Source: an uncultured Prevotella sp. (GTDB lineage: Bacteria; Bacteroidota; Bacteroidia; Bacteroidales; Bacteroidaceae). Taken from it: a DNA stretch of 64,000 nt. The notes under the pieces are model-generated. The model was not told the DNA's origin. It searched no databases and saw nothing but the letters and a program-made list of their open reading frames with translations. Below, one piece after another: positions 26,707 through 60,152 of the stretch (position 1 is its first letter; each line of letters begins with the position of its first letter). A program made the translations under genes and the position numbers. Location: NCBI RefSeq assembly GCF_946404925.1, contig NZ_CAMJFM010000011.1:1-64000 (forward strand), in the 5' to 3' direction.

Positions 26707-29319
26707 TTAGAACGTTGCTCTAACCATAAATCTCACACCATGTTTGTGCGCCGTTGGCAGCTCGTTGTAGTTCAGTCGGCGTATGTACTCCACGTGTACT
26801 ATCTTAAAGATATTATGTATACCCAGACTCAACTCCATGTACGGGCGCTTGGGGTTCAGCTCGTAGCAGCCTTCGGGGAAGTACATCAGCATCGTGTTGC
26901 CAGCGTTCTTAGCCAACAGCGGGTTGTTCTTCTCCGACAGCTCCCCCCACAGCACGCGGAATCCTATCCACTCTCTCCACTTCAGCTTGCGTATCAGCGG
27001 TATACGGTTCAGTATCTTTCCGTTCAGGTCCCAGTTCACCTGACCCGATAGGAATCTGTCGGTGGGGAACTCCATGTTGTTGATGGCCTCAAACGTGTAG
27101 TCCTGTACAATGTAGCTCAGGTTGGTCTCGGGCATAATCAGCAGTGGGAATGGTACTTTCTCCCACTCTATACCACCCTTCACCTTGAAGTCCATCTTTC
27201 CCCACGACTTCAGCCAGAATCGCTTGTAGATCGATGCCTCGGTGTAGTTGTAGCTGTATTGTCCGCCCAGCACGCCTTTCAGTCCTAAGGTATGACTCAC
27301 GGTGAATACCGGTGCATCCAGGTTGATGGGCAGTCGGCGCTGCTTGGTGTTGATAAACGTCTCGCCCGGGGCGAATCGCAACTCGGCGCGCAGCTCGGTG
27401 GTGCGTATCTTCTGACTCTGCACCGTGTTGGCACCCGATGTGGGCAATGCCGGATTGCTCCAGTTGGTCCAGGTGCTTTGGTCGTTGCTCTCCGATAGCG
27501 GAATGAAGTACAGGTTGCCGCAGGCCTCGTTCTCCTCAGTCTTCATCTGCACCGTGGTGCGGAATCCCCAGTCCTCCTCGCGCTCAAAGGTCAGCGTCTG
27601 GCGGTTGTAGAACATCATCTTGTCTACCTTGCTCCACTTAAAGGCAGTAAACATGTTGTCCTTATCGGTACGCATGAACTTGTCTGATGGCGACATCACG
27701 TCGTAGGTCGACGAGAAGGTGAGCGTGCGCTGCGGGAACTCGCGGGGCAAGTACTCCTTCTTGTTGAACGACCATATCACATCGCCCTTGTAGTACCACT
27801 TCTTCGAGTCGATGCCTCGGGCCACGTAGCCTTTCAGGAAGAGGTTCGAATCGAGATTAGCCGTGGTCTGGGCCGATAGTCGCAGGCGTATACCGTCTAT
27901 TATGTTCTTGGTTATCATGGTGTTGATAGGACCAATATCCACCTTGCTGGGGTGTTTCTTGGTGCCCGTCTCCACAAAGTTCTCTATCAGCGCCTTCAGG
28001 CCGAAGATGATGTACTTAAAGCCCTTGATGTTCTCGATGTTGCTGATAAACGAGCCCATCTGACTCTCGCCCTTGGTCAGCTCCACCTGGCGATACTGGT
28101 TCCAGAACTCGTCGCCGCGCATCATGGCGTTCACGTCCTTCACCTCCTTCTTCGAGCCCTTAAACAGCTGCTTGGGCAGTTCGTCGAAGGCGTAGTCGCT
28201 GATGCGGGTGTTACGTATCACAGCCAGTTTCTGCAAGAAGCTGGCCACCTTTATCTCGGTAAACATATCGTCTACGCTCAGCACCCAACTGCCATCGGGC
28301 AACTGTGTAAACTCCTGCACCACCTGCATGTTCTCCACCCAGTTCACATCGCTCTTCTTGGGTATGGTCATCTCGCAGCGCTTCACCTGCCAGCTCGAGT
28401 CGGCCAGGATATACAGGTCGCCGCGGAAACCGAAGTCCTGCTGGTTGTTGGGCAGGAAGTGCAGATGGTAGCACAGGTCCTTGTCTACATACAGCGTGTC
28501 TTCTATATAATATCGGTAGAAGGCGATGGCATCCTTACCTATGGGCGATGTAAACGGATACTGCAGCATACGTATCTGGTCGTCGTATATGTTCACATCG
28601 GTAAACACGTCCTTAATCACCGTGTTCAGTATGTCGCCCGTTTGTATCAGGTCGTTAATACCCTGCGTGTTGATACCTTTTATGATGGTCTTCTCGTCGT
28701 GGGGTTTCTTGCGGTATATCTTCTGCGACACCGTCTCGTCTACGCTGATGGGCAGTATCAGCTTGTTGTTGTAGGGACATGCCTCTATCTGGTCTATCAG
28801 CCACTGCTTCTTCTTGTACTTAGGCGAGTCGAGCACCTCGGGGCGGAAGTCGTTCAGCGCCAGGGTTATCTTCTGATACTTGTTGTACTGATAGAAGTCG
28901 CGGTTGTCCAGATCGGTTTGTTTCTTGGCGGCCACCACCTTCTTCATCATCTCTACGGCCGGGTTGTTCTTGCGGCTGTAGCGCTGTCGTTTGGTCTTGA
29001 CGGTCACCTCCTTCAGCATCTTGTTGTCGGTCTTCAGGCTTATCTTGATGTTGTCCTTGATGCTCGAGCTGATGGCCACCGTGTGACTCACGTAGCCCAC
29101 CGATGTAAACGTGAGCTGCCAGCCATTGTGGCGAGCTATCTTGAAGTTTCCGTCGATATCCGATGCCACGCCCACACCATGACCCATATACTGGGCACTG
29201 GCAAAGGGGATTGGCTCACCGGTCTTAGCATCCACTATCTGACCGGTAATCATGTGCTGTGCCCATACGCTCATGGCCATCAGCATCATACTCAATAGTA
29301 CTGTTATCCTTCTATTCAT
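26707..29319 (-). CDS. DUF5686-family outer-membrane protein with carboxypeptidase-like regulatory domain
   Basis: Signal peptide; ITGQIVDAKTGEPIPFASAQYMGHGVGVASDIDGNFKI; DUF5686-like body and C-terminal GIHNIFKIVHVEYIRRLNYN. Confidence 0.85.
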   Translation of the reverse strand: MNRRITVLLSMMLMAMSVWAQHMITGQIVDAKTGEPIPFASAQYMGHGVGVASDIDGNFKIARHNGWQLTFTSVGYVSHTVAISSSIKDNIKISLKTDNKMLKEVTVKTKRQRYSRKNNPAVEMMKKVVAAKKQTDLDNRDFYQYNKYQKITLALNDFRPEVLDSPKYKKKQWLIDQIEACPYNNKLILPISVDETVSQKIYRKKPHDEKTIIKGINTQGINDLIQTGDILNTVIKDVFTDVNIYDDQIRMLQYPFTSPIGKDAIAFYRYYIEDTLYVDKDLCYHLHFLPNNQQDFGFRGDLYILADSSWQVKRCEMTIPKKSDVNWVENMQVVQEFTQLPDGSWVLSVDDMFTEIKVASFLQKLAVIRNTRISDYAFDELPKQLFKGSKKEVKDVNAMMRGDEFWNQYRQVELTKGESQMGSFISNIENIKGFKYIIFGLKALIENFVETGTKKHPSKVDIGPINTMITKNIIDGIRLRLSAQTTANLDSNLFLKGYVARGIDSKKWYYKGDVIWSFNKKEYLPREFPQRTLTFSSTYDVMSPSDKFMRTDKDNMFTAFKWSKVDKMMFYNRQTLTFEREEDWGFRTTVQMKTEENEACGNLYFIPLSESNDQSTWTNWSNPALPTSGANTVQSQKIRTTELRAELRFAPGETFINTKQRRLPINLDAPVFTVSHTLGLKGVLGGQYSYNYTEASIYKRFWLKSWGKMDFKVKGGIEWEKVPFPLLIMPETNLSYIVQDYTFEAINNMEFPTDRFLSGQVNWDLNGKILNRIPLIRKLKWREWIGFRVLWGELSEKNNPLLAKNAGNTMLMYFPEGCYELNPKRPYMELSLGIHNIFKIVHVEYIRRLNYNELPTAHKHGVRFMVRATF

Positions 29320-29338
29320 TCACTCTAAATTCTCAATT

Positions 29339-30007
29339 CTAAACTCTTAATTGGTTGAGCGCCGTAATCACGCGCTCAGCCGCTGTTTCGTCTACAGGGT
29401 CGTTAGTCCAGCCTTCGCCTTTAAACCATACGGTGTGGCATCCAGCCTTGCTGGCAGGAATAATGTCCTTATCCATGCTGTCGCCCACCACCACAACCTC
29501 ATCGGGTTGCATCTTCAGAGCCTCCACGCCAAGTGTAAATATCTTGGGGTCGGGTTTGCGCACACCCACCACAGCACTCTCTATGATGGTGTCAAAAATG
29601 CCATCCAGCTTGAATTCCTTCAGCACGGTGGCTATGTTGCCGTAAAAGTTGCTCACCAGCACCATGGGGTATCGTCCCTTCAGCTGCAGCAGCACCTCAC
29701 GACTACGGGCGGTCTCCTCGCAAGTCAGCTGGTACAAGTCGTCTACCACAGCCTGCTGATATTCGGGCTTGCCCAAGAATTCCAGCTCTATGCGTATCTT
29801 CTCCTCCAGCGTACGCTTAAAGGTAAAGTCGGGCTTGATAATCGGGTTCTTGCCCAGTGTACGCTCGGCGTGCACGTAGGCATCGCGAAATTCGGCCTCG
29901 CTCACGGGCACCTGCTGGCGCTCGTAGGCATGCCATATCACCTTGCCCCAGTGCTGTCCACCGGTATCCAGCGTGCCGCCGTAGTCAAATATATATCCTT
30001 TAATCAT
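29339..30007 (-). CDS. HAD-family hydrolase
   Basis: MIKGYIFDYGGTLDTGGQHW; KPDPKIFTLGVEAL; VVVGDSMDKDIIPASKAG. Confidence 0.9.
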   Translation of the reverse strand: MIKGYIFDYGGTLDTGGQHWGKVIWHAYERQQVPVSEAEFRDAYVHAERTLGKNPIIKPDFTFKRTLEEKIRIELEFLGKPEYQQAVVDDLYQLTCEETARSREVLLQLKGRYPMVLVSNFYGNIATVLKEFKLDGIFDTIIESAVVGVRKPDPKIFTLGVEALKMQPDEVVVVGDSMDKDIIPASKAGCHTVWFKGEGWTNDPVDETAAERVITALNQLRV

Positions 30008-30056
30008 TGTCTCACCTTCTCACTTTCTCACCTTCTCACCTTCTCACTTTCTCATC
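30003..30056. repeat. CTCACCTTCT decamer array between CDP-alcohol transferase and HAD genes
   Basis: tgtctcaccttctcactttctcaccttctcaccttctcactttctcat. Confidence 0.85.
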
Positions 30057-30952
30057 AGTTCCGCGCACAATCGCTCATGCTTACTGTGCATATACATATA
30101 CATGGCCTGGAACACGGTTATCTCTACCAGCGGATATACCCATGGGCAGTCTAGCAAGCAGGTCACGTAGATGGTGATGGCGCGAGTGTTAAACGTCAGC
30201 AGATTGGTGTACTTCATCAGCGGACGACTACCCTCCAGCAGTTTCTGGCGCACCTCTTCGTTTGGATTCTGCTTCCAGCGTGCAAAGAAGCTCTGGAACT
30301 GCGGTGTGCGCTGCTCCTGACTCTTGCAGTAGTTGGCGTAGTTATAGTAGAACGTGCGGCCCAGCAGGTCGCTTTTGGGCAGAGCCTCGTAGGTGGCACG
30401 CTGCTGCTTGTAGTTGTCCAGCTCGCTACCCTCCTTGCCCAACAGGAAGAACAGGTGTATCTGGCGATAGTAATCGGCCAGCGAGCTCTGCTTGGAGTGC
30501 AGCAACACACCAGCTATAAAGCACAGCACAAAGCCCCATATGCCCCACTGATACTCAGTGCCGGGTATGTTCTGATTCCACAGGCGCCAGATGATGGCGA
30601 TGTAGATACTTGTAAACCACAGGTCGCCCGAGAATCCATCGAGCATACGGCCTATCAGGGTTTTCTTGCCTGTTATGCGGGCCATCTGGCCGTCGGTCGA
30701 GTCACAGAAGTTAGCAAACATCAGCAGCACCACGCCACAGATGTTATGCATCAGGTCGGTGTAGTGGAACATCCATCCTGCTCCCACACCTAAGAATATC
30801 GATACGATAGTGATTACGTTGGGGTGGATATCCAGTTTATTCCACAACAGTGCAAACACCAGTCCTATGGGGCGGGTAAAGTGCACGTCCAACCACTCTT
30901 CAGTATCTTCCGACTTAAACGATAATTTCAATAATTCCTTAAATGTTGCCAT
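30044..30952 (-). CDS. CDP-alcohol phosphatidyltransferase family protein
   Basis: Motif NFCDSTDGQMARITGKKTLIGRMLDGFSGD; several TM segments. Confidence 0.88.
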   Translation of the reverse strand: MATFKELLKLSFKSEDTEEWLDVHFTRPIGLVFALLWNKLDIHPNVITIVSIFLGVGAGWMFHYTDLMHNICGVVLLMFANFCDSTDGQMARITGKKTLIGRMLDGFSGDLWFTSIYIAIIWRLWNQNIPGTEYQWGIWGFVLCFIAGVLLHSKQSSLADYYRQIHLFFLLGKEGSELDNYKQQRATYEALPKSDLLGRTFYYNYANYCKSQEQRTPQFQSFFARWKQNPNEEVRQKLLEGSRPLMKYTNLLTFNTRAITIYVTCLLDCPWVYPLVEITVFQAMYMYMHSKHERLCAELMRK

Positions 30953-30957
30953 TATAA

Positions 30958-31015
30958 TGTTTAATCTTTAATCTTCTAATTTTTAATCTTTAATTTTTAA
31001 TCTTTAATTTTTAAT
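30958..31015. repeat. TTTAATC/TTTAATT heptamer array
   Basis: tgtttaatctttaatcttctaatttttaatctttaatttttaatctttaatttttaat. Confidence 0.85.
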
Positions 31016-31777
31016 CAGCTTCGCGATAGCGAAAGCTGCCTCCTCGCGACAGCGAGAGAATGAGGGCCAGTCATTAAAATCTATGATGCTATACGCGCCC
31101 TTCTCGTCTACGATGCAGTCGCCGCCATACACGCTGATGCCCACTGCCTTGGCCAGCTGTTCTGCACACGCCTGCAGCGTCTCTATCATAAACGGATAGT
31201 GTCGGGCTGCCCCGTTGCGCTGTTCGTCGCCAAACTTGGTGTCGCCATCGTCTGTGGGGTAGTAATAGCGGAAGAATCCCGTGCCTGCCACACCATAGAA
31301 CTTCACCAGATCGCCGGGCACGTGCGCACTCACGGTATATTCGGTGATGCCGCGCGCCTTAAACTCCTCAATCTTCTGCTCCAGCTCGGCCTTGGTAGCG
31401 GCAAACTGCACGTCGCCCTTGCTCTGTGCGGCAGCATCGCCTCGCTTCAGCCAGTAGCCGTGCACACCCTCGCGTGGTGGCATAGGCATACCAGTGCGGC
31501 GCATTATCTCCTCCAACTTGCATCGGGCGCAGTTCTTGATGCCATCCGATGAGTTGATGGTGTTCAGCGTCTGCAGTTTAGCTAATGTCTCGGGCAGACG
31601 GCCCATCGTCATAATGCGGTCGTACTGCTCAGGTGCGTATTCAGCCTCCTCGCTCACCAAGTCTACTTGATGTCCAGCCGCCATGAGTTTAGCGCCTACC
31701 GTTTCCAGTATCGCCTTGTCCTTCTCCACCGAGTTCGGCGAGAATCTCTCCGCCCGCTGTATCATCAGTATCCTCAT
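31004..31777 (-). CDS. ATP-grasp-like protein
   Basis: MRILMIQRAERFSPNSVEKDKAILETVGAKLMAAGH; ATP-grasp-like end GGDCIVDEKGAYSIIDFNDWPSFSRCREEAA. Confidence 0.65.
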   Translation of the reverse strand: MRILMIQRAERFSPNSVEKDKAILETVGAKLMAAGHQVDLVSEEAEYAPEQYDRIMTMGRLPETLAKLQTLNTINSSDGIKNCARCKLEEIMRRTGMPMPPREGVHGYWLKRGDAAAQSKGDVQFAATKAELEQKIEEFKARGITEYTVSAHVPGDLVKFYGVAGTGFFRYYYPTDDGDTKFGDEQRNGAARHYPFMIETLQACAEQLAKAVGISVYGGDCIVDEKGAYSIIDFNDWPSFSRCREEAAFAIAKLIKN

Positions 31778-31781
31778 TTCT

Positions 31782-31833
31782 CTAGCTTCTCACTTCTCAC
31801 CTCTCACCTCTGAGAAAGCATTCGGCTTTCTCA
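31782..31833. repeat. CTCACCT heptamer array plus 9-bp hairpin at NTP-transferase 3' end
   Basis: agcttctcacttctcacctctcacctc then TGAGAAAGC-ATTCG-GCTTTCTCA (31811-31833). Confidence 0.85.
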
Positions 31834-32513
31834 ATATCGCTCGCGTGGTCTATATCCAGCACCTTCGAGAAGCCGTAAGCCTTCAGCTTCAGCCCGTCGC
31901 TCACCAGTGCACGCTGAAAGTTGCGCATTCGGCTGTCGCCGCGCTCTATGCATCGGCGCAGGGTGTCTATCGATTTCGGTGTCAGTCCGTATATGCCACC
32001 GCTGATGAATTTCGGATTCTCGCAGGTGTCGTAGAATCCTGTGATGTCCATACCCTCGGTAGTGCCCACATATAGCGGCTTCTCGTCGTCTATATAGTCC
32101 GTCACGCCCATCAGTCCGTCGGCCACGTTGTCGGCAACGTACAGTTCAAAGGTCTTGGCGTATGTACCAAACTCCTTCTCGCGGAAAATGGTGTCTACCG
32201 TAGTCAGGATGAATGGCTCATCGCCCAACCATCGGCTCAGTTCCCACATGCTGTGCATCGAGCTTGGGGTGCTCTTCACCACATACTTCAGGGGCACGCG
32301 TCCTGCCTCTGCTATCTCTTTCAGGTGTTCGGCCACGGCCGTCATCTGTTCATTACATATCACGCATATCTCGCTGGCATTGTTATCCATAAACACGCGT
32401 ATCAGTCGGTCTATCAGCATCTCGCCGCCAACTTTTACCAGCGGTTTCGGCGCTGCCACGCCCTCCTGCACCAATCGCGATCCCTCGCCAGCAGCTATAA
32501 TTGCATACTTCAT
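31797..32513 (-). CDS. Nucleotidyltransferase (NTP_transferase family)
   Basis: MKYAIIAAGEGSRLVQEGVAAPKPLVKVGGEMLIDRLIRVF; VDTIFREKEF. Confidence 0.9.
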   Translation of the reverse strand: MKYAIIAAGEGSRLVQEGVAAPKPLVKVGGEMLIDRLIRVFMDNNASEICVICNEQMTAVAEHLKEIAEAGRVPLKYVVKSTPSSMHSMWELSRWLGDEPFILTTVDTIFREKEFGTYAKTFELYVADNVADGLMGVTDYIDDEKPLYVGTTEGMDITGFYDTCENPKFISGGIYGLTPKSIDTLRRCIERGDSRMRNFQRALVSDGLKLKAYGFSKVLDIDHASDIEKAECFLRGER

Positions 32514-32543
32514 TTTTCCAAACTAAATCTAATTTATTCGCAT

Positions 32544-32603
32544 CGTTATTAAAATAACGGGTGCAAAGTTACGCAATTTTACCGAATTGCGAAAACTTTG
32601 CAC
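32544..32603. promoter_or_regulatory. Dyad-symmetric promoter of the NTP-transferase operon
   Basis: GTGCAAAGTT-A-CGCAATT-TTACCG-AATTGCG-AA-AACTTTGCAC (32561-32603) containing minus -7 box TAACTTTG; second palindrome CGTTATT-AA-AATAACG (32544-32559). Confidence 0.75.
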
Positions 32604-32652
32604 GCTTATTTAGGTTTTATTAGTATTACGCGTTGATATACATCACCTTGAG

Positions 32653-32819
32653 ACTTTTGCACTTTGACAGTTTGACATTTAGGCTTTGGATATTAATAGG
32701 GAAATCTGCGAATGAGACACAATACTTGTATCATATATTATAATATATAATATAAGTATATTTCGTTGTTGAACAATTCCAGAATAGCAGATGTCAAACT
32801 GCAAAAGTGCAAATCTCTG
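32653..32819. repeat. Nested inverted repeats (28-bp outer arms, 36-bp inner AT palindrome)
   Basis: ACTTTTGCACTTTGACAGTTTGACATTT (32653-32680) vs reverse complement of 32790-32819; inner 32723-32758. Confidence 0.75.
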
Positions 32820-32937
32820 CCAATACAGAAATACCCAAAGTTCTTTTTGAAAATAATTACCAATTTACCTAATAATTCCAATATTTTAAAAACCTTTGCA
32901 TTGGAGTTAAGGCTATGCATACTTTTGGTTAGGCCAT

Positions 32938-32973
32938 GAAAATTTTTCTAGTAGGCCTACCAGGAAAATTTTC
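32938..32973. repeat. 36-bp near-perfect loop-less palindrome
   Basis: GAAAATTTTTCTAGTAGGCCTACCAGGAAAATTTTC; 16 of 18 pairs Watson-Crick. Confidence 0.9.
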
Positions 32974-33072
32974 CATACCAAGCCCGCAAAACAAAGACAG
33001 AGAAAGAAACTTCAATAAAAAAGAATATATTTTACAAACTCAAGCTCGTTTATGTATATTTTGGAACTCATG

Positions 33073-33100
33073 CAAAAAAAGGGGCAAGAAGCCCCCCCCA
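33073..33100 (-). terminator. Terminator of the GIN-domain gene
   Basis: Minus strand GGGGC-TTCTT-GCCCC-TTTTTTT. Confidence 0.85.
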
Positions 33101-33119
33101 ATACGTATCTTATTTTTAT

Positions 33120-33893
33120 TTATTGCCCTACTCTCAAGTCGCCGGAGTTGATGTCGCCCGAGCCGCGTTTGTGCATGTCGAAGCGCTGAACCTGGCCCTT
33201 GAGGGTGATGTCGCCAGAGCCTTGAAGTTCGGCATTGACGGAGCCGCAACCACTGAGAAACTCGACGTCGATGTCGCCAGAGCCACGGAGCTGCAACTGG
33301 GTGCGGAGGGCGTTCATCTGGCGGATGTTAAGATCGCCGGAGCCGATGAGGGTGGCTGTGGTCTCGCGGGTATCGAGATGCTTGATATTCAGGTCGCCCG
33401 AGCCTACGAGCTCGGCATCGCAGCGGTCGCAAACCACATCGGTGAACTGCACATCGCCCGAGCCCTTGAGGCGGAGTTCAAGATTGTCGGTATCAACACG
33501 GCCCTGACTGATGAAATCGCCTGAACCGCTGACCTGCACGCCAATCAAATCGGGCGAGGTGACATAGACGGCCAACTCCTTGTCGCCACCAAAATGGACA
33601 TTGAAGATGCCTATCTTGCCCTTGTTGCGGATAGTGAGGGTGCCGCCCTCTACATCGGTAAGGATATTGGGAACAAGGTCCTTAGGACCTTTTATGCGAA
33701 CGGAGAACGAGTCGGCCTGGGTGTAATAGACGGTAGGCGAACCGATAACCTCGATCCTATCGAAACCTTCGAGATCGGTGGTACGCACTTCCATCTCGTC
33801 GGAATTGGAATACGTAATCTTTAAACCACTGGTGCTGCACGAACAGAGTGCCAAAGCAGCTACGGCAAAAAACGGAAGAAAATATCGCTTCAT
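33120..33893 (-). CDS. Head GIN domain (DUF2807) lipoprotein
   Basis: Lipobox ALALCSCS; seven GSGD turns at 19-21 aa spacing. Confidence 0.88.
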   Translation of the reverse strand: MKRYFLPFFAVAALALCSCSTSGLKITYSNSDEMEVRTTDLEGFDRIEVIGSPTVYYTQADSFSVRIKGPKDLVPNILTDVEGGTLTIRNKGKIGIFNVHFGGDKELAVYVTSPDLIGVQVSGSGDFISQGRVDTDNLELRLKGSGDVQFTDVVCDRCDAELVGSGDLNIKHLDTRETTATLIGSGDLNIRQMNALRTQLQLRGSGDIDVEFLSGCGSVNAELQGSGDITLKGQVQRFDMHKRGSGDINSGDLRVGQ

Positions 33894-33971
33894 ATTAAAG
33901 ATTAAACATTAAAAATTATACATTAAATTAAACTTTTCTATCCGTTTGACGGAACAAACGATAGAAAAGTT
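33893..33971. repeat. ATTAAAG/ATTAAAC heptamer array plus 17-bp hairpin
   Basis: attaaagattaaacattaaaaattatacattaaatta then AACTTTTCTATCCGTTTG-ACGGAA-CAAACGATAGAAAAGTT (33931-33971). Confidence 0.85.
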
Positions 33972-33991
33972 GCAAAGCATCATAAAAAAAT

Positions 33992-35242: not shown

Positions 35243-35404
35243 AGGTTCTTAATTTCAGAGGACAAAAGTAAGAATTTTATTTGGAAAACACGCATTTTTC
35301 GCACTATTTTTAATAAAAACGAAGTTTTTTTGTTAGATTAACAGTAAAAAAGAGTGATTTTAGGCCGATTTGCATTAACTTTGCACCCTGATAACATTAA
35401 CATA

Positions 35405-36904: not shown

Positions 36905-39056
36905 ATATTTGCTCATAGCACTATTCGCTATTCACTGTTCATTATTCACTCCTATGAGCGCTCAGGATAAGAAACTGTTTACACTCGAAGACCTGAACTT
37001 TGGCGGAACCAACTACGCCAACCTGCGACCACAGGACATGTGGCTGACATGGTGGGGCGAGAAACTGATAGAAACCGGTGTGGACGAGTGCAAGGTGATA
37101 GACACCAAGACGGGCAAGAAACAAGTGCTGTTTACACTCGACGACATCAACAAGATGGCCGGTAGCGACGACGACAAGTACGTGCGCCACCTGATGAACG
37201 CCACATTCCCCTACCCCGACAAAACCATCGTGGCTGTGGGCAATCGCAAGGCGTTCATACTGGTTGACTTCGAAAAGAAGCAGATAGTATGGCAGGACAG
37301 CATATCAGGCCAGACGGCTAACGACTGGAACCCCACATCGCGCGCCACAGCGTGGGTGGAGAAAGACCAGCTCTACGTGGCCGATGCCAACGGCGTGAAG
37401 CACCAGCTGAGCACCGACGGCAGCCGCGAAATAGTGTACGGACAGAGCGTGCATCGCAATGAGTTCGGTATCAGAAAAGGTACATTCTGGAGCCCTAAAG
37501 GCAACAGACTGGCCTTTTATCGTATGGACCAGAGCATGGTGACCGACTATCCACAGGTGAACATTTTCACCCGCTCGGCCGACTACGAGCCCGACAAATA
37601 TCCCATGGCCGGCATGACCAGCCACAAGGTAACGGTGGGCGTGTATGACGTGAAGACCAACAAGACCATCTATCTGCAAGCCGGCGACCCAACCGACCGC
37701 TATTTTACCAACATAGCATGGAGTCCCGACGAGAAGACCATCTACATGTTTGAGTTGAACCGCAAGCAGAACGACTGCCGACTGGTATCGTACGACGCCA
37801 CAACGGGCGCTAAGATAGCCGAGCTGTATCGCGAGACATCAGACAAATACGTGGAGCCACAGAACCCCATTCAGTTCCTGCCTTGGGACTCTGAGAAGTT
37901 TGTGATGCAGAGTCAGAAGGACGGCTACAACCACCTGTACCTGATGGACAAGAGCGGCAAACAACTGAAGCAGATAACCAGCGGCAAATGGGTGGTGATG
38001 GACTTAGTAGGCTTTAACACCAAGAAGAAGAGCATACTCTACACCAGCAACGAGATTTACCCCACAAACTGCAATCTGTGGACCGTTGAGGTGAACAGCG
38101 GCAAGCGCAATCTGCTGGGCCAAGGCATCGGCGTGGTACAGAGCGCACAGCCATCGGCCACAGGACAGCAGGTGGCTCTGAAGTTCTCGTCGTACAACCG
38201 TCCACGCGTGATCGACCTGATTAACGCCAACACCTGGAAGGTAACCAATCTGCTGGAGGCCGCCGACCCCTGGAAGGACTACCAGCAGCCCATCTACACC
38301 AGCGGCTACATAACAGCTGCCGACGGCAAGACCGACCTGTACTACCGCATGGTGAAGCCACACGACTTTGACCCCAACAAGAAATATCCCACGGTGATAT
38401 ATGTATATGGTGGTCCGCACGCGCACAACGTAGATGCATCGTGGCACTACATGAGCCGCCCCTGGGAGACCTATATGGCACAGAAGGGCTACATCGTGTT
38501 CATTATGGACAATCGCGGATCAGAGAATCGCGGTCGCGACTTTGAGCAGGCCACATTCCACCAGCTGGGACAGGTAGAGATGCAGGACCAAATGAAGGGT
38601 GTGGAGTTCCTGAAGAAGCAGCCATACGTAGACATGAACCGTCTGGGCGTGCACGGATGGAGCTTCGGCGGATTTATGACCATATCGCTGATGCTGAACT
38701 ATCCTGATGTGTTCAAGGTAGCCGTGGCTGGCGGACCCGTGATAGACTGGAAGTGGTACGAGGTGATGTATGGCGAGCGCTATATGGGCACCCCACAAGA
38801 TAACCCCGAGGGCTACGCCAAGGCCAGCCTCATCAGCAAGGCCAAGAACCTGAAGGGCAAGCTGCAGATCATCACCGGCTATAACGACAACACGGTGGTG
38901 CCACAGCACTGTCTGTCGTTCCTCGATGCGTGCGTGAAGGCCGGTACACAGCCCGACTTCTTTGCCTACCCGGGCGAGGAGCACAACATGCGAGGCCACG
39001 CCAGCGTGCATCTGCACGAACGTATCACACAATATTTCGAAGATTATTTAAAATAA
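36891..39056 (+). CDS. S9 family prolyl (dipeptidyl/tripeptidyl) peptidase
   Basis: Signal peptide; beta-propeller; [49 protein letters not shown]. Confidence 0.93.
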
Positions 39057-41730: not shown

Positions 41731-41766
41731 GTTAATTATCAATTATCAATTGTCAATTATCAATTA
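41731..41766. repeat. TCAATTA heptamer array
   Basis: gttaattatcaattatcaattgtcaattatcaatta. Confidence 0.85.
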
Positions 41767-41824
41767 TATTTCGTAACTTTGCACCACTATTTAGATTTTT
41801 AACGTTAAAGTATAAAGTATTGTA

Positions 41825-48160: not shown

Positions 48161-48169
48161 TAAAAAGAA

Positions 48170-48196: not shown

Positions 48197-48217
48197 TATT
48201 TTTATGCTCATGAAAAA

Positions 48218-48703: not shown

Positions 48704-48711
48704 AATAGCAG

Positions 48712-49706: not shown

Positions 49707-50029
49707 CCGATAATCAATATAATAGAGGTATAGATAAACATATCAGCAACACGCAGCCAGAACGTATCGGTAAGCAGTTGGCCGTTGGTCATGATGGGCT
49801 TGGTAGAGGCCAGAGCGAATGTGAGCACCATGCACAGCACAAAGCCGATGGCAACACACCACCCGATTTTTCCAGCGGGCACACCATTCACCACATCATC
49901 GCCCTTTCTGCGGAATCGCAATCCATGCCACACCGAATAGGCTGTAGTCAATATGGCAACAGCAATCGCCAGGTACATCAGTCCCAGCATCACATCAGCT
50001 ATAGCAGGCGAAATGAAGTTATTCATCAC
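49667..50029 (-). CDS. Small 3-TM membrane protein of the TolQ/ExbD operon
   Basis: Hydrophobic segments; conserved operon position. Confidence 0.6.
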   Translation of the reverse strand: MMNNFISPAIADVMLGLMYLAIAVAILTTAYSVWHGLRFRRKGDDVVNGVPAGKIGWCVAIGFVLCMVLTFALASTKPIMTNGQLLTDTFWLRVADMFIYTSIILIIGCFVSAIVSRFRS

Positions 50030-50039
50030 TATTCACTCT

Positions 50040-50861
50040 TCACTTTTCACTATTCACTTTATACTCGCTAATCATGTCCAGCAGCATTATGGCAGCCTCT
50101 TCCATCTGAGCCGTCAACCGCTCAATCTTTGAGAGGATATAGCTATAGAACAGCTGCAGTATCAGGGCCACTACGATACCGAAGATGGTGGTAATCAGCG
50201 CCACCTTCATACCCTGAGCCACTACGGTAGGACCGATGTCGCCAACAATCTGAATCTGATCGAACGCCATCACCATACCAATCACGGTGCCCAGGAATCC
50301 GAGCGATGGAGCCATCGCAATAAACAGCTTAATCCACGAGCAGCCCTTCTCCAGGTTGGCAGTCTGCAATCCACCAAAGTTAGTGATGCTACGCTCAATG
50401 GCATCCATGGGCTGTTTGATGTGCAGCAATCCTTGGTAGCATACCGATGCCACAGGTCCACGGGTGTTGCGACATAGTGTCTTGGCCCCCTCTACATCGT
50501 TGGCCTTCAGTTTCTGCTCTATATCGCCCATCAGCTGGTGGGTTTTAATCTCCGAGAGTGTCAGATAGATGATGCGTTCTATGCAGAAAGCCAGTCCCAG
50601 CACAAGTGCTAGGGCCACAAGCGACATAAATGCCACATTACCATCCACAAACTTGGTCTTCAGCTGTTTGTGCAGTCCACCTTCAGCCTCATCGCCGGCA
50701 AGTTCGTCGATATCATCAGCCATCACAGCCATCGAGTCAACATCAGCCGTGATAGCCGTTGTGTCGGTGATTGCTACAGAATCAACCTTGTTCTGAGCAA
50801 TACTGGTTTGCGAAACACTCAGCAAACCTATCAGTGCGAAAAGAAAAATCAGTCGTTTCAT
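50040..50861 (-). CDS. MotA/TolQ/ExbB proton channel family protein
   Basis: SWIKLFIAMAPSLGFLGTVIGMVMAFDQI...VAQGMKVALITTIFGIVVALILQLFYSYI. Confidence 0.92.
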   Translation of the reverse strand: MKRLIFLFALIGLLSVSQTSIAQNKVDSVAITDTTAITADVDSMAVMADDIDELAGDEAEGGLHKQLKTKFVDGNVAFMSLVALALVLGLAFCIERIIYLTLSEIKTHQLMGDIEQKLKANDVEGAKTLCRNTRGPVASVCYQGLLHIKQPMDAIERSITNFGGLQTANLEKGCSWIKLFIAMAPSLGFLGTVIGMVMAFDQIQIVGDIGPTVVAQGMKVALITTIFGIVVALILQLFYSYILSKIERLTAQMEEAAIMLLDMISEYKVNSEK

Positions 50862-50877
50862 ATCATAAAATTCCTAG

Positions 50878-50965: not shown

Positions 50966-51036
50966 TAATTAAGTGGATGCAAAGTTAGCGTTAATAATTG
51001 ATAATCAATAATTGCCAATTGATAATTTAATATTCT

Positions 51037-52787: not shown

Positions 52788-52793
52788 ATCATA

Positions 52794-53489: not shown

Positions 53490-53586
53490 CTGTTTTATAT
53501 AAAACCGAGTGCAAAGATAGTTATTTTTTCGGTAAAATAGGTATATATTAAGTTTTTTTGCTATCTTTGCGACCAAATTAGGAGAA

Positions 53587-54537
53587 ATGAACATTCGAAA
53601 CGTCATAATAACCCTCATCACGGCCTGTGCGTCAACCACTATCAATGCTCAGGACAGCGAGACAGCCTACAATTTCCTGCGGCTGCCGGTTAGTGCGCAT
53701 GTGGCTGCCGTTGGTGGCGACAACATCTCACTGGCCGAGGACGACGCTACGATGATATTCCACAATCCGGCCCTTATCAGCGGGGTGAGCGACAACAGCA
53801 TCAACCTCAACTACATGACGTATATGGAGGGGGCTAAGAACGTCAGCGCATCGTTTGTCAAACTGGCTGGCGAGCGTTCCTCATGGGGCGTTTCAGCTCA
53901 GCTGATGGACTACGGCAGGATAAACCAGACCACCGCTTACAACGAGCATCTCGGCAAGTTCTCTGCCCGCGACATCGCCATCGGCGGCACCTTTGCCTAC
54001 GAGCTTACCGACAGGATCAGCGGCGGTATCACGGCCAAGTTCATCACTTCTACCATCGCCGATTACAACTCGCTGGCAGTGGGTGTGGATTTAGGATTAA
54101 ACTACCTTGATATCGATCGTGGCTGGAGCCTCTCCACCGTGGCACGCAATCTGGGCGGACAAATCAAGGCTTACGAAGACGATTTCGAGCGCATACCGTT
54201 CGATCTGCAGGTGGGCGTCAGCAAGCGCCTATTGAACTCGCCTCTGCGATTCCACGCCACACTCAGCCGACTGACTGATTGGGACGAAGCTTTCGGGCAC
54301 CATCTGGCCATCGGAGCCGATGTGCTATTGGGCGAGAATATATACTTGGCTGCCGGCTACAACTTCCGCAAGTCACAGCAGATGTCGGTTTCCGACAACG
54401 ATGGTTCGTCAGCCCATGGGGCCGGACTATCACTTGGTGCAGGCTTGTCGCTTCAGCGATTCAAGCTCCATTTGGGCTGGGGCAAGTATCATGTCAGCAC
54501 CTCATCACTACTGATTAATATATCATACGCATTATGA
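53587..54537 (+). CDS. porQ: Type IX secretion system protein PorQ
   Basis: [38 protein letters not shown]; porQ-cmk gene order. Confidence 0.88.
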
Positions 54538-55226
54538 AGAAGATAACTATTGCAATTGATGGCCACAGTTCGTGCGGTAAAAGCACCATGGCCAAGGACC
54601 TGGCCCGCGAGGTGGGCTATGTATATGTAGACACAGGCGCCATGTATCGCAGCGTAACACTCTATGCCCTGCGCCACAACCTGTTCAACGAGGATGGCAG
54701 CGTTAAGACCGCCGACCTCCAGAAGGAGATGCCAAACATCCAGATTTCGTTCAAGTTCAATGCCGAGGCCGGTCGCCCCGACACCTATCTTAACGGCGAG
54801 TGCGTCGAAAAGGAGATCCGCTCGCTCGAGGTGAGCAGCCACGTTAGTCCTATTGCTGCCGTACCATTTGTGCGCACAGCTATGGTAGCCCAGCAACAGC
54901 AGATGGGTAAGGACAAGGGCGTGGTGATGGATGGCCGCGACATTGGTACCACCGTATTCCCCGATGCCGAACTGAAGATATTCGTCACCGCCTCTGCGCA
55001 GGTTCGTGCCCAGCGCCGATTCGATGAACTCAAGGCCAAAGGCATGCCAGCCGATTTCAACGACATCCTGAAGAACGTTGAAGAGCGCGATTATATCGAC
55101 TCTCATCGCGAGGTGAGTCCGCTGCGCAAAGCCGACGATGCTATCGAGCTCGACAACAGCAATATGACGATTCCAGAACAGAAAATATGGCTTTTAGAGC
55201 GTTTTAAGGAGCGTTCGGGACAATAA
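54534..55226 (+). CDS. cmk: (d)CMP kinase
   Basis: [59 protein letters not shown]. Confidence 0.96.
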
Positions 55227-55319
55227 ATTGTTCATTTTTGGTATTTTTCTCGTCATTTTCTCGCTTGTTTTAGAAATTTTGGCTACCTTTGCAGCCGAAT
55301 TTAAAGAACATAGAAGAAA

Positions 55320-56726
55320 ATGACGAGAAAAGTATTTATTTCAGCCATTGTGGCCTTAGCCACATCAGCCTCAGTCCATGCAGGTGGACTCATGACCAAC
55401 ACAAATTATCACATAGCTTTCGACCGAATGTTTGCTCGTGGTGCATCAACCGAGATTGACGCAGCCTACAGCAACCCCGCTGGTTTGGCATGGGGACATG
55501 AAGGTTGGCAGTTCTCTCTTAATTTCCAGAAACCTTGGCAGTACCGCGACATCGAGCTGACCACATCTGTAGGTAGTCACACTTATGAAGGCAAAGCCTC
55601 AGCACCTATCGTTCCAGCTTTATTTGCTTCGTATAAGAAAGATCGCTGGGCCCTCTCAACCATGATTGGCATTGTGGGCAGCGGTGGCTTTGTTGAGTAC
55701 AAAGAGGGTGTACCCATGTTCAACGCACTGCTGGGTGGCACAATAACCTCGCTGACACAGAGTCTGTCGGACGCTACCAGTGGATTCGCTCCTGTAGTAA
55801 CACCCGACCAGTACGACGCTGAGATGAAGGGAAAGCAGTATATCTATGGTGGACAGTTGAATTTCACCTATAAAATTATTGATTGCCTCTCGGCAGCTGT
55901 CGGAATCCGTGCCAACTACTACGATGGCTACTATCGTGGCCACGTAAAAGCAGCGCAGTCAACACTGGGCGAACTGGCAAATCTTTCGCTGGATGTAGAC
56001 CAGAAGGGATGGGGTTTTACTCCTATTGTCAGCTTAGCATTCCATAAAGGTCCACTCACGCTGAGTGCTCGCTATGAGTTCCGCACAAAGATTGAGACCA
56101 AGAACGAGACAAACAGTCTGAACGCCAACTTAAACACCGCCACACTTGTTGAGGAGCCACTGGCGCAATTGGTTGCTGCAGGCGCTCTGCCAGCAGAGAC
56201 AGCCATTGCAATGGCACAGAGCATCCGCACCAAGGTTGAGAGTTCGTTGGGTGGCTACATCCAACCTTATCAGGACGGCGTAAAGACACGCTACGATATG
56301 CCTGCCATGCTTAGCATAGCTGCTGGATATGAGTTTAACAAGAATCTGCGCGCAGCTTTGGAGTATCACTTCTTCGACGACAAGAATGCCCAGATGGCAA
56401 ACGACCGTCAGAAGGAGTTAACCCATGGTACTCACGAAATCCTGGCTGGTATCGAGTGGGACATCAACGACAAATTCACAGTAAGCTGTGGTGGTCAGCG
56501 CACTGACTATGGTCTCTCTGATGGTTATCAGCAGAACACCTCGTTTGCTTGCGACAGCTACAGTGTAGGTTGCGGTGGTGCCTGGAACATCAGCGATAAG
56601 ATGCGCCTGAACGTGAGCTACTTCTGCACACTGTACAGCGATTACGACAAACAAACCAGCTATGGTTTAGAAACATACAGCCGCACCAATCATGTGATTG
56701 GCGTAGGTTTGGATTACAAATTCTAA
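55320..56726 (+). CDS. OmpP1/FadL-like outer membrane protein
   Basis: GLMTNTNYHIAFDRMFARGASTEIDAAYSNPAGLAWGHEGWQFSLNFQ; C-terminal VGLDYKF. Confidence 0.88.
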   Translation: MTRKVFISAIVALATSASVHAGGLMTNTNYHIAFDRMFARGASTEIDAAYSNPAGLAWGHEGWQFSLNFQKPWQYRDIELTTSVGSHTYEGKASAPIVPALFASYKKDRWALSTMIGIVGSGGFVEYKEGVPMFNALLGGTITSLTQSLSDATSGFAPVVTPDQYDAEMKGKQYIYGGQLNFTYKIIDCLSAAVGIRANYYDGYYRGHVKAAQSTLGELANLSLDVDQKGWGFTPIVSLAFHKGPLTLSARYEFRTKIETKNETNSLNANLNTATLVEEPLAQLVAAGALPAETAIAMAQSIRTKVESSLGGYIQPYQDGVKTRYDMPAMLSIAAGYEFNKNLRAALEYHFFDDKNAQMANDRQKELTHGTHEILAGIEWDINDKFTVSCGGQRTDYGLSDGYQQNTSFACDSYSVGCGGAWNISDKMRLNVSYFCTLYSDYDKQTSYGLETYSRTNHVIGVGLDYKF

Positions 56727-56734
56727 GTATCAAT

Positions 56735-57151
56735 TCAATCTCTTATTTCCCGAAGCGGGATCATCACAAAGTCTCGCTTCAGCATCAGGGGGTGGGGAAT
56801 CTGCAAGTCAGGTTCATCCACCCTCAGATCGTCATATAGCAGTATGTCTATATCTATACAGCGATCGGCATAACCGCCATCGGTGCTTTTCTTCAGGCGC
56901 CCCATCTCACGTTCTATCTTCTGCGTGGCGCGCAGCACCTGCCGGGGTGTCAGCATGGTCTCGCACATGACTGCAGCGTTCACAAAGGTATTTTCCGACT
57001 CAAACCCCCAAGGTTCGGTTTCAATAAATGATGAAACACGAAGAACCTTGCCTACTCTTTCGCCAATCAAGCGAATAGCGCAAGCAAGGTTCTCTCTCTT
57101 ATCTCCAAGGTTAGACCCTAACCCCAAGTAAACATAATGTTCAATGCTCAA
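56735..57151 (-). CDS. folK: 2-amino-4-hydroxy-6-hydroxymethyldihydropteridine diphosphokinase (TTG start)
   Basis: YVYLGLGSNLGDKRENL; RCIDIDILLYDDL; IPHPLMLKRDFVMIPL. Confidence 0.93.
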   Translation of the reverse strand: MSIEHYVYLGLGSNLGDKRENLACAIRLIGERVGKVLRVSSFIETEPWGFESENTFVNAAVMCETMLTPRQVLRATQKIEREMGRLKKSTDGGYADRCIDIDILLYDDLRVDEPDLQIPHPLMLKRDFVMIPLREIRD

Positions 57152-57170
57152 TGTTCAATGCTCAATATTA
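57136..57170. repeat. TTCAATGC/TTCAATGT heptamer array between queA and folK
   Basis: aatgttcaatgctcaatgttcaatgctcaatatta; contains the folK TTG start codon. Confidence 0.85.
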
Positions 57171-58232
57171 ATCGTCCAGCATCAACAGTGCATCACCGTA
57201 GCAACCAAACTTATAATCCTCCTTCAGCGCACGCTGATAACCCTCGTACAGTAGGTCATACCCTACAAACGAAGCCTCGGTCATCATCATGGGCGACTCT
57301 GGGTGATAGAAGTTGCCGATCATTGCATTACACAGTCCGAACTCGTATGGTGGGAAGATGAACTTATTGGTCCATCCCTCAAACTCCTTCAGCATACCAT
57401 CGGTACCTACAGCACTCTCGGTGGCACGAGCGGTGCTCACACCTACGCAGCACACGCGGCGGCCGGTGCTCTTAGCCTTGTTTACCACCTCACAAGCCTC
57501 GGCTTTAACAAACATCTGCTCACTGCCCATCTTGTGTTTGGTCAGGTCTTCAACCTCGATGGCATCAAAGTTTCCAAGACCACAGTGCAGTGTGATAAAG
57601 GCAAAGTTAATACCCTTAATCTCCATACGCTTCATCAGCTCACGGCTGAAGTGCAGACCTGTTGAAGGCGCAGTAACAGCACCCTCGTTCTTAGCATATA
57701 TGGTCTGGAAATTATCCATATCCTCTGGGGTAGCAGGGCGCTTGTCGATGATGTAGCGTGGCAGTGGTGCCTCGCCAAGACCAAACAGCAACTCCTTGAA
57801 CTCATCGTGCGGACAGTCGTAGAGGAAACGCAGTGTACGTCCGCGGCTGGTGGTATTGTCAATCACCTCGGCCACCATTGGTCCATCCTCCTCAAAGAAG
57901 AGTTTGTTTCCAATACGTATCTTACGTGCAGGCTCTACAAGCACGTCCCACAGGCGCTGGTCGGCATTAAGCTCGCGCAGCAGGAATACCTCAATCTTTG
58001 CATCTGTCTTCTCCTTGGTGCCATACAGTCTTGCTGGGAACACCTTAGTATCGTTAAAGATAAAGGCATCGTCCTCATCAAAGTAGTCCAGAATATTACG
58101 GAAGTCAAGTCCCGTTTCAATCTTCTGACTCTTACGATGTAACACCATCAGTTTGCACTCATCGCGATGATAAGGTGGCTCGAGCGCAATCTGCTCTTCT
58201 GGTAACTTAAACTTAAACTGTGATAACTTCAT
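57168..58232 (-). CDS. queA: S-adenosylmethionine:tRNA ribosyltransferase-isomerase (QueA-like)
   Basis: MKLSQFKFKLPEEQIALEPPYHRDECKLMVLHR; NDTKVFPARLYG; APSTGLHFS. Confidence 0.94.
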   Translation of the reverse strand: MKLSQFKFKLPEEQIALEPPYHRDECKLMVLHRKSQKIETGLDFRNILDYFDEDDAFIFNDTKVFPARLYGTKEKTDAKIEVFLLRELNADQRLWDVLVEPARKIRIGNKLFFEEDGPMVAEVIDNTTSRGRTLRFLYDCPHDEFKELLFGLGEAPLPRYIIDKRPATPEDMDNFQTIYAKNEGAVTAPSTGLHFSRELMKRMEIKGINFAFITLHCGLGNFDAIEVEDLTKHKMGSEQMFVKAEACEVVNKAKSTGRRVCCVGVSTARATESAVGTDGMLKEFEGWTNKFIFPPYEFGLCNAMIGNFYHPESPMMMTEASFVGYDLLYEGYQRALKEDYKFGCYGDALLMLDD

Positions 58233-58241
58233 ATCTAAATT

Positions 58242-58958
58242 TTACGATTTTACTATTTCACTATTTGACAATTGTTTTTCCAGCCAGATTGGAAAATCAT
58301 CGAACGTCAGGCAGTCCTCTATGCGTACATCGCCCACACGGGTGCGGCATAGTTGCGTCAGGTGTGCGCCGCTGCCTAAGGCCTCGCCAATGTCGCGGGC
58401 CAGCGATCGGATGTAGGTACCCTTGCCACATGCCACACGTATCTGCAGCAGCATCTTCTCGGGGTCAAAGCTCATCAGCTCAATCTCGTCTATGCGTATG
58501 GGCTTGGGCTCCAGCTGGTGGTCGCTACCCTTGCGGGCCAGCTCGTAGGCACGGTCGCCACCCACCTTACAGGCCGAGAACAACGGTGGGCGCTGCATAA
58601 TGTCGCCCACAAATTTGGGCAGTGTCTGCTCTATCAGCTCGCGAGTAATGTGCTCGGTGGGGTACGTCTTATCCACCTCGTGCTCCAAGTCGTAGCTGGG
58701 CGTTGTGGCACCCAGTTGCAGCGTGGCGGTGTACTCCTTCGAGTGTTTCTGCAGCTCCTCAATCTGCTTGGTAGCCTTACCCGTGCACAGCACCAGCACA
58801 CCTGTTGCCAGGGGGTCTAGCGTTCCGGCATGCCCCATCTTCACACGCTTCACATGCAGACGCTTCGACAGCACATATCTGATGTGCGCCAACGCCCCAA
58901 AGCTCGACATGCGATAGGGTTTATTGATATATATGTATGCGCCTTCCTGGAAATTCAT
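58242..58958 (-). CDS. truB: tRNA pseudouridine(55) synthase
   Basis: GHAGTLDPLATGVLVLCTGKATK; CGKGTYIRSLARDIG. Confidence 0.95.
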   Translation of the reverse strand: MNFQEGAYIYINKPYRMSSFGALAHIRYVLSKRLHVKRVKMGHAGTLDPLATGVLVLCTGKATKQIEELQKHSKEYTATLQLGATTPSYDLEHEVDKTYPTEHITRELIEQTLPKFVGDIMQRPPLFSACKVGGDRAYELARKGSDHQLEPKPIRIDEIELMSFDPEKMLLQIRVACGKGTYIRSLARDIGEALGSGAHLTQLCRTRVGDVRIEDCLTFDDFPIWLEKQLSNSEIVKS

Positions 58959-59815
58959 TAGTCAACCATTGCAAGTGAATGACCTGTAAGCAGCAGCACA
59001 ATGATAATGGTGCCCATTACTATACGATAAATACCAAAGGCCTTGAATCCGTATTTGGTGAGATAGTCAACAAACCAGCGCATAGCCAGCAGTGCCACCA
59101 CAAATGCGATGACGCATCCCAGTATCAGCATGGTGATGTTGTGACTTGTGGCCCAAGCCGTATCTTCCTTCAGCAGATCCAGCAGGTCAAGCAGTGTGGC
59201 GCCGGCCATGGTTGGCACAGCCAGGAAGAACGAGAACTTAGCCGCACGGCGACGTGTAAGTCCCTGAGTCATACCGCCCACGATGGTAGCCATCGAGCGC
59301 GATACACCAGGAATCACCGATATACACTGATACAATCCTATTTTAAATGCACGGCGCTCGTCAACCTTGTTCTCCTCGCTGCCTTTGTTAAACAGCTTGT
59401 CGCAGAACAGCATGAACACACCTCCCAGCACCAGCATCACAGCCACTACCTCTACACTATCCAGCAACCAGTCCAGCAAACCTGACTTCTTAGCAGCCAA
59501 ACCAATCACCACAGCAGGCAACACACCTACTATCAGCAACCAGTAGAAATAGAATCTGTGCTTCAGTCTAATAAACAACGAGCTACCCTCGGGTGCGGGT
59601 GTATTGTCAAACTGGAAGAATCGCTTCCAATACAGGCATACCACCGAGAGGATGGCACCAAACTGAATGATAAACGTAAATGCGTGTACAAAAGGGTCGC
59701 CTTGAGGCACACCCAGCAGGTTCTGCGCTATAATCATGTGTCCGGTCGACGACACTGGCAGAAACTCTGTCAAGCCCTCAATAATGGCGATAATGACTGT
59801 TTCAATCCAATCCAT
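58958..59815 (-). CDS. uppP: Undecaprenyl-diphosphatase
   Basis: IIEGLTEFLPVSSTGHMIIA; PGVSRSMATIVGGM. Confidence 0.95.
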   Translation of the reverse strand: MDWIETVIIAIIEGLTEFLPVSSTGHMIIAQNLLGVPQGDPFVHAFTFIIQFGAILSVVCLYWKRFFQFDNTPAPEGSSLFIRLKHRFYFYWLLIVGVLPAVVIGLAAKKSGLLDWLLDSVEVVAVMLVLGGVFMLFCDKLFNKGSEENKVDERRAFKIGLYQCISVIPGVSRSMATIVGGMTQGLTRRRAAKFSFFLAVPTMAGATLLDLLDLLKEDTAWATSHNITMLILGCVIAFVVALLAMRWFVDYLTKYGFKAFGIYRIVMGTIIIVLLLTGHSLAMVD

Positions 59816-59850
59816 ATTTAATTTTTCAATTTTTACATTTTTAAATTTGC

Positions 59851-60078
59851 CTACTCGTCTTTTGGTTTTCTTACTACTGCATATATCATCGACACAAAGC
59901 CCACCAGGCAGATAACCGGGGCCACCTTTGTGCGGCGTGCACTGAAGATATCGGGCTCAAAAACGGTATCCGATGAGTTAGGACCTACCATCAGCAGGAA
60001 TCCGATAACCACAATGGCCATGCCAATTGCCAACAATATAAAGTTGGTCTTGTCGAATGCAAAATTCTTCTTATCCAT
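59851..60078 (-). CDS. DUF3098 small membrane protein
   Basis: MDKKNFAFDKTNFILLAIGMAIVVIGFLLM; uppP-DUF3098-ftsX order. Confidence 0.85.
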   Translation of the reverse strand: MDKKNFAFDKTNFILLAIGMAIVVIGFLLMVGPNSSDTVFEPDIFSARRTKVAPVICLVGFVSMIYAVVRKPKDE

Positions 60079-60152
60079 CATATCTAAAAATCTCAAACCT
60101 CAAATCTCAAATCTCAAACCTCATACCTCAAATCTCAAACCTCAAACCTCAA
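60079..60152. repeat. CTCAAAC/CTCAAAT heptamer array between ftsX and DUF3098
   Basis: tctaaaaatctcaaacctcaaatctcaaatctcaaacctcatacctcaaatctcaaacctcaaacctcaaatc. Confidence 0.9.

Follow-up and report, generated by a model that had tools for sequence, protein, structure and literature searches.

Tandem arrays in the window

The DNA stretch analysed here, referred to as the window, comprises 64,000 nucleotides of an uncultured Prevotella sp. (contig NZ_CAMJFM010000011.1, positions 1 to 64,000) and is part of a source genome, G000, of 3.0 Mb in 82 contigs. G000 belongs to the rumen Prevotella; the best named UppP matches are 97–98% identical, with Prevotella ruminicola KHT3 among them. Many gene junctions of the window, and several of its genes, carry short arrays of direct repeats with units of 7 or 8 nt. 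In this Prevotella such arrays occur throughout the genome. The set of units differs from species to species, and an orthologous spot carries a different unit or none. The arrays of the window are the following:

3209–3239, plus strand: ATTAAA[C/G], period 7, 4.4 units, directly 3′ of the upstream stop codon
16542–16561, minus strand: CTCACCT array in a GH2 gene (14834–17281), adjoining a 40-nt core found in a second G000 gene
16980–17012, minus strand: CTCACCT-type array in the same GH2 gene, stop-free strand
19700–19733, minus strand: CTCTCACCT array, in-frame insert in a loop of a GH31 gene (19292–22312)
29324–29352, minus strand: degenerate array AATTGAG/AATTTAG at the HAD hydrolase/DUF5686 junction
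30010–30054, minus strand: GTGAGAA[G/A], period 8, holding the CDP-alcohol transferase stop and ending 2 nt before the HAD start
30955–31016, minus strand: ATTAAA[G/A/C], period 7, from the end of gene 31004–31777 to 2 nt before the ATG at 30952
31773–31811, minus strand: GGTGAGA/AGTGAGA at the junction of an NTP-transferase gene and gene 31004–31777, holding the upstream TGA
33894–33927, minus strand: TTTAAT[G/C] (ATTAAAN family, reverse strand), ending at the ATG at 33893
36919–36950, plus strand: CACTATT array coding for the signal-peptide core of a DPP-IV-like peptidase
41734–41767, plus strand: AATTATC array that follows a stop codon and lies 5′ of a TAnnTTTGC-type promoter motif
50026–50058, minus strand: AGTGAA[T/A/G] array at the end of gene 50040–50861
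50994–51027, minus strand: AATTATC array, degenerate, lying 5′ of a TAnnTTTGC-type promoter motif
57136–57166, minus strand: ATTGA[G/A]C array between queA and a folK-like gene, G/A alternating by unit
58239–58266, minus strand: AAATAGTR, period 8, giving the truB C-terminus and stop, before queA
59820–59848, minus strand: AAAAATTG/AAAAATGT array, period 8, at the DUF3098/uppP junction, one substitution from locus L081
60088–60156, minus strand: TTTGAG[G/A], 9.4 units, holding the ftsX stop, before DUF3098

Period and abundance

An earlier note on this DNA had named eleven such arrays at same-strand junctions, and all 11 are real. Each exceeds its own dinucleotide shuffles (P ≤ 0.008; best lag identity 0.65–0.96), and Tandem Repeats Finder (TRF) recovers them as well. 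The units had been described as 7 nt and sometimes 10 nt long. Period 7 does dominate, being the best period at nine of the named loci, but none of them has period 10: the supposed 10-nt array at 30003–30056 has period 8 (GTGAGAAR), and so does that at 59816–59848.

The genome survey covered 864 kb of G000, window included, with TRF at a score of 40 and dinucleotide shuffles as the control, as for the named arrays. Genes were called with a purpose-built codon model; stop codons are exact and start codons approximate. Intergenic DNA contains 105 arrays of all periods, compared with 9.0 in the shuffles. For period 7 the counts are 24 and 0, and for period 8 they are 13 and 0.2, so the excess over shuffled sequence that had been proposed as a check is clearly present. 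The bias in period is equally evident in 79 other Prevotella loci of ~12 kb each, where 148 arrays have period 7, 35 have period 8, three have period 6 and none has period 5. The idea that periods are mostly of the form 3n+1 thus holds in that 7 is dominant. However, 8 is 3n+2, and therefore the junction pattern is better described as rarely a multiple of 3.

By location, 55 arrays of the survey lie at junctions, 29 lie inside genes and the spacers between divergent or convergent genes hold 9 (25 period-7 and 7 period-8 arrays of G000 are classed as coding). The arrays are thus not restricted to junctions, and the window itself has coding arrays at 16542, 16980, 19700 and 36919. Density is ~4.0 per 100 kb of coding and 49 per 100 kb of non-coding DNA, i.e., an approximately twelve-fold difference. 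Spacer arrays span 15–87 nt.

Per 100 kb, G000 has 10.8 arrays of period 7 or 8, G285 has 11.2, and G353, G071, G056, G051 and G020 have 8.8–16.2. The density falls to 1.2 in G026, 1.0 in G016 and 0 in G010, and is 0 in G025, G038 and G030, which belong to other families, and in 50 kb of E. coli. Given this unevenness, period-7/8 arrays are confined, as far as sampled, to part of the genus Prevotella. Most of the genomes compared are metagenome-assembled genomes (MAGs), one per species. An assembly artefact was rejected as the explanation, given the shortness of the arrays, their ordinary density in the G285 contig and their consistency between related genomes.

Unit families and the variable position

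At least eight unit families occur in G000: ATTAAAN, GGTGAGA, TTTGAGR, AGTGAAN, ATTGANA and RAATGAT with period 7, and GTGAGAAR and GTAAAAAR with period 8. They were assigned with chosen consensus units, which 21 of 93 arrays do not fit. The claim that units are unrelated from locus to locus therefore survives between species and fails within G000. Instead of each locus having a unit of its own, most of the 11 named arrays belong to recurring families: 3209, 30958 and 33893 all carry ATTAAAN (33893 on the opposite strand), 30003 and 31782 are both of GTGAGA type, 41731 and 50990 are both ATTGANA, and further G000 loci carry the same families as the named arrays.

In most G000 families nearly all variation is confined to one position of the unit. 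For ATTAAAN, variability is 0.58 at position 7 and at most 0.07 elsewhere; for TTTGAGR it is 0.41–0.42 at position 7, in junctions and genes alike. The exceptions are GGTGAGA, which has no single variable position, and AGTGAAN, which shows one weakly. In a set of 160 arrays drawn from many genomes, 0.63 of the mismatches fall at the most variable position, compared with 0.46 at random, whereas for 36 arrays of period 9, 12 or 15 the value (0.49) equals that expected (0.49). As read from the sequence, adjacent units often alternate, as in GATTAAA AATTAAA and TTTGAGG TTTGAGA.

Period-9 arrays of the types TACGGATTA, CACGGATTA and CACGAATTA were also observed, at 7540–7565 and 10678–10705 in the window and at many other places in G000. 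They mostly have three copies, often form inverted pairs or lie in short divergent spacers, and constitute a family distinct from the 7/8-nt arrays.

Position and strand at gene junctions

G000 has 54 arrays at same-strand junctions. The upstream stop codon is overlapped or touched by 42 of them, 41 have their end no more than 20 nt from the start codon of the next gene, and both hold for 31. As read from the sequence, the arrays at 41731 and 50990 lie upstream of TAnnTTTGC-type promoter motifs and not against a start codon, and their AATTATC units (41734 and 50994) are among the pyrimidine-rich junction arrays.

Where a stop codon recurs in nearly every unit on one strand only (all genomes read), the stop-bearing strand is sense in 52 junction arrays and antisense in 15; within genes it is sense in 2 and antisense in 26 (Fisher P = 1e-10). 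Junction arrays contain 0.89 stops per unit on the sense strand versus 0.43 on the other, and 82% of them have a stop in nearly every unit. Because junction arrays are mostly purine-rich, stop content and purine content are not well separable. ATTAAAN, which has stops on both strands, lies in the A-rich orientation in 9 junctions versus 4 in the other.

This geometry is what would be expected if the arrays were functional junction elements, i.e., selected three-frame stop insulators or translation leaders whose 7-nt period provides stops in all frames. The excess of sense-strand stops, the high share of arrays with a stop in nearly every unit and the way in which the arrays hold the upstream stop and extend to the start codon all favour such a role, and the TAACTGA repeats of Beggiatoaceae, for which a translational role was proposed, occupy the same place (PMC4679880). 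Yet coding arrays cannot serve in this manner and still share the period, junctions of a conserved operon carry an array in just 2 to 26 of 74–79 genomes, and close relatives manage there without an array or with a stop–start overlap, while many different units serve. A functional origin is thus rather unlikely. Stops in all three frames, to which the earlier note had drawn attention, are not supported as the reason for the 7-nt unit; stop-free coding arrays also have period 7 or 8, and therefore the period is set by the process that generates the arrays. The strand bias is real, yet it is explained by selection after the fact.

Two palindromic structures were noted beside arrays. At five loci of G050 (L330, L334, L338, L342 and L347), AGTGAAG arrays at convergent gene ends lead into GAATTTGCTACCGC ... 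GCGGTAGCAAATTC and the reversed array, a long hairpin with a possible terminator role. A dispersed palindromic element of ~70 nt (GCGAG..CAGAGCCAAGCTTGCTTGAGC...) is located at gene ends beside arrays at junctions of L225, L227 and L229.

Arrays within genes

Inside genes, the arrays represent genuine insertions into conserved proteins. A CTCACCT array occupies a loop of the GH31 protein (gene 19292–22312) that is missing from most orthologues; G041 retains a decayed version of the array, and in G022 the same loop holds an array of a different unit, of TCAATTG type. The PurL linker before PKAAIIREK is built of AAACCTC units in G000, AATGTTC in G056 and AATGGTC in G053, contains hairpins in G071 and G022, and has no insert in many other genomes. 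Between G056 and G053 (L285 and L291), T is changed to G in every copy of the linker unit, silent codon position included. ClpB has two array sites. In clpB of L254, L255, L257, L265 and L266, palindromic inserts such as CAGCGGTTCTCCCGCTG replace arrays in a loop, with paired changes between species.

Near N-termini, arrays code for hydrophobic signal-peptide cores (36919–36950, C2:178401 and C2:134354); such heptamer-coded cores read ALFTIRCSLFT and QLSIVNCQLSI. Coding period-7 arrays of at least 28 nt are 28–36 nt long with a mode of 32, a length that may follow from the fact that 3 × 7 = 21 keeps the frame. The same families are present in junctions and, reverse-complemented, within genes, and thus the generator is independent of place.

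An identical 40-nt core, CCGCTCGAGCTCCGCTCGCTTGCTACCAACGGGACGCAAGA, is flanked by CTCACCT units in two unrelated genes of G000 (the GH2 gene at ~16520–16600 and a gene near C5:34637), and G050 has a related core between AGTGAAG units of its own. The idea that one dispersed core gave rise to the arrays was rejected, since the 40-nt core occurs only twice in 864 kb.

Turnover between species and genome-specific units

The operon ftsX–DUF3098–uppP–truB–queA–folK was compared among 74–79 genomes, of which 26, 5, 2, 23 and 22 have an array at the five successive junctions. At the ftsX/DUF3098 junction (26 of 79 genomes), only 25 of 325 genome pairs share 30% of their 7-mers, and the two other well-populated junctions give 11 of 253 and 28 of 231 pairs. 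Even at locus L081, whose coding DNA is 85–90% nucleotide-identical to that of the window, AGTGAAT-type units occupy three junctions where the window has TTTGAGR, AAATAGTR and ATTGARC; its DUF3098/uppP array differs from that of the window by a single base. A second region has the same pattern of turnover, with GATTGAGA/AACATTG units at several junctions in G115 (L227). Orthologous junctions, those of close relatives included, often have no array or have overlapping stop and start codons, and therefore no array is required there.

Units are shared far more within genomes than between them: similarity within a genome is 0.101, compared with 0.020 for shuffled genome labels (maximum 0.039). Exact 26-nt matches, which include overlapping matches and are not numbers of loci, point the same way. 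TTTGAGR gives 58 in G104, 36 in G097, 17 in G000 and none in most of 90 genomes; GGTGAGA gives 17 in G000 and 13 in G051; AGTGAAD gives 98 in G050, 78 in G099 and 3 in G000. The reversed-pattern control for these counts is not clean, as AGTGAAA arrays match it.

Such vocabularies bear on three further explanations. The first is purely local, neutral slippage in unconstrained spacers with no exchange between loci. It accords with the twelve-fold enrichment in spacers over genes and with the over-representation of heptamers in many bacteria, for which polymerase slippage was proposed (PMC4692102). Independent events would not, however, give unit sharing within genomes at five times the level between genomes, nor families that bloom in single genomes, which makes this explanation very unlikely.

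The second is a mobile or gene-conversion origin, in which ready-made arrays of ~30–60 nt are copied from locus to locus in the manner of miniature inverted-repeat transposable elements (MITEs) or repetitive extragenic palindromic (REP) sequences. Blooms limited to single genomes, identical 32-nt arrays at C4:60307 and C5:48507, the 40-nt cores with CTCACCT flanks together with their AGTGAAG-flanked relative in G050, and the narrow array length within genes would all fit. Unit order, however, is shared between loci no more than unit composition gives (67 pairs with aperiodic 20-mers in common, compared with 57 ± 8 after unit-order shuffling), the length of spacer arrays varies widely, and no terminal repeat or target duplication is visible, although the termini were not systematically tested. 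This origin is unlikely, if the least so of the alternatives weighed here. The earlier note took a common architecture with varied sequence to suggest a generating process or a function and not one mobile family. The architecture does point to a generating process, and neither of the outcomes named there as refuting, no enrichment over shuffles or no bias in period, was observed.

The third is template-directed synthesis, in which an enzyme adds units from a genome-specific template that sets the unit length and the loose position. The telomeres of some protists are built by template-directed repeat addition. Such an enzyme would account for the fixed unit length, the one variable position, the genome-specific units and the unshared unit order. 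But the reverse transcriptase domain PF00078 was not found in the array-rich genomes G000, G104, G047, G051 and G071, whereas the array-poor genomes G010, G016, G003, G040 and G061 have at least one PF00078 each. Known reverse transcriptases are therefore disfavoured, and G000 would have to handle its eight or more families at once. We regard this explanation as highly improbable.

Origin of the arrays

The reading favoured here, to which we assign a probability of about one half, combines slippage-like generation at short direct repeats and spread of units between loci with subsequent selection on frame and stops. A process at the DNA level would keep making direct arrays of 7 or 8 nt in weakly constrained DNA, namely gene junctions, gene ends, signal peptides and protein loops. 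It could be replication slippage or template switching, primed by a direct repeat of ~6 nt whose copies lie 1–2 free bases apart; this would yield period 7 or 8, one free position and alternating founding bases. Slippage alone cannot make unlinked loci share units, and therefore some exchange between loci appears to be needed. Ectopic copying of existing units to other loci of the same genome would give rise to genome-specific vocabularies.

Selection would then sort the products. Junction arrays would survive when their sense strand has a stop per unit; usually these also provide the stop codon of the gene before them and a purine-rich leader to the gene after them, and gene ends would keep the stop-bearing strand since a stop-free array would lengthen the protein. 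Inside genes, stop-free, in-frame arrays would survive, and a gain of three units (21 nt) from a short seed could yield the length of the coding arrays. The existence, enrichment, period, families, strand bias, species turnover, vocabulary and single variable position of the arrays are shown by the data described above; slippage, spread by copying and the selective reasons are inferred.

Several points weigh against this reading. Slippage usually favours units of 1–4 nt, which are missing here, and by itself leaves the sharing of units across unlinked loci unexplained. The 20-mer sharing test gave no direct trace of whole-array copying between loci. In purL, the T-to-G shift in all copies, with the copy-specific base kept, is predicted by neither simple slippage nor homogenisation. 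With one genome per species, mostly MAGs, the sample includes no strain-level event.

A bolder proposal is that an active, genome-wide repeat-writing process with a genome-specific vocabulary builds 7–8-nt arrays with one loose position from scratch. It is distinctly doubtful; if true, new spacers, C-termini, signal peptides and protein loops would be made by repeat writing. On the favoured reading, the presence of different units at the same spot in the next species points to fast repeat-making whose products are sorted by selection.

Comparison with known systems

The palindromic elements of Rickettsia (RPE) are ~100–150 nt long, fall into few families, and are inserted in frame in surface loops of conserved proteins as well as in spacers. 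The Prevotella arrays are likewise small in-frame loop and spacer repeats; they differ in being direct heptamer arrays.

To date, no description of such arrays in Prevotella has been found in the literature, in a search that left out most subscription journals. An excess of heptamers is reported for many bacteria, with an earlier proposal that ties it to how much DNA the polymerase holds; the cause of the seven-base excess has been little studied (PMC4692102).

The TAACTGA repeats of Beggiatoaceae, some Cyanobacteria and Bacteroidetes (PMC4679880) are among the closest known systems. Like the present arrays, they are heptameric direct repeats just 5′ of start codons (41 of 54 within 20 nt here), provide stops in all frames in the forward orientation and show no link to gene function. 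Some overlap the upstream stop or sit in genes, reverse orientation included, as in the stop-strand split of 52:15 versus 2:26. However, that system has one fixed unit per genome, whose single-base variants are rarely repeated, whereas Prevotella has at least eight families per genome, species-specific sets, one variable position and also period 8. The TAACTGA unit itself is absent among the G000 array units tabulated.

The heptamers GGGAATC of Xanthomonas and GGGGA(C/T)T of Nostoc (PMC4692102) are similarly concentrated in spacers and variable in length and sequence between close relatives, and the latter has one two-way position, as in Prevotella units. They are G-quadruplex-forming, with one main family per genome. 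In contrast, the Prevotella units are A- or purine-rich without long G runs (ATTAAAN, TTTGAGR, GGTGAGA, AGTGAAN and ATTGANA all lack the 3–4 G runs per unit of G-quadruplex heptamers), comprise many families and extend into genes.

Borg tandem repeats (PMC9879509) are fast-evolving, of independent origin, present in spacers and genes and enriched in A, much as here. Their units are ~18–36 nt long in the examples considered, and those in genes give perfect amino-acid repeats; the Prevotella units are 7–8 nt long, not a multiple of 3 even in genes, and reside on a bacterial chromosome.

Being above chance (24 versus 0 for period 7) and concentrated in spacers (49 versus 4.0 per 100 kb), the Prevotella arrays fall within the wide group of heptameric simple repeats. 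They differ from the known heptamers in how many families one genome holds, in a vocabulary that turns over between species, in having one variable position per unit and in having invaded conserved genes. Spacers, protein tails, signal peptides and loops are rebuilt faster than the adjoining genes diverge, and the arrays bear on start-codon annotation and alignments in rumen Prevotella. With about ten arrays in every 100 kb, a species-specific vocabulary and arrays in conserved genes, this lineage offers a dense natural record of how arrays originate, spread and are sorted.

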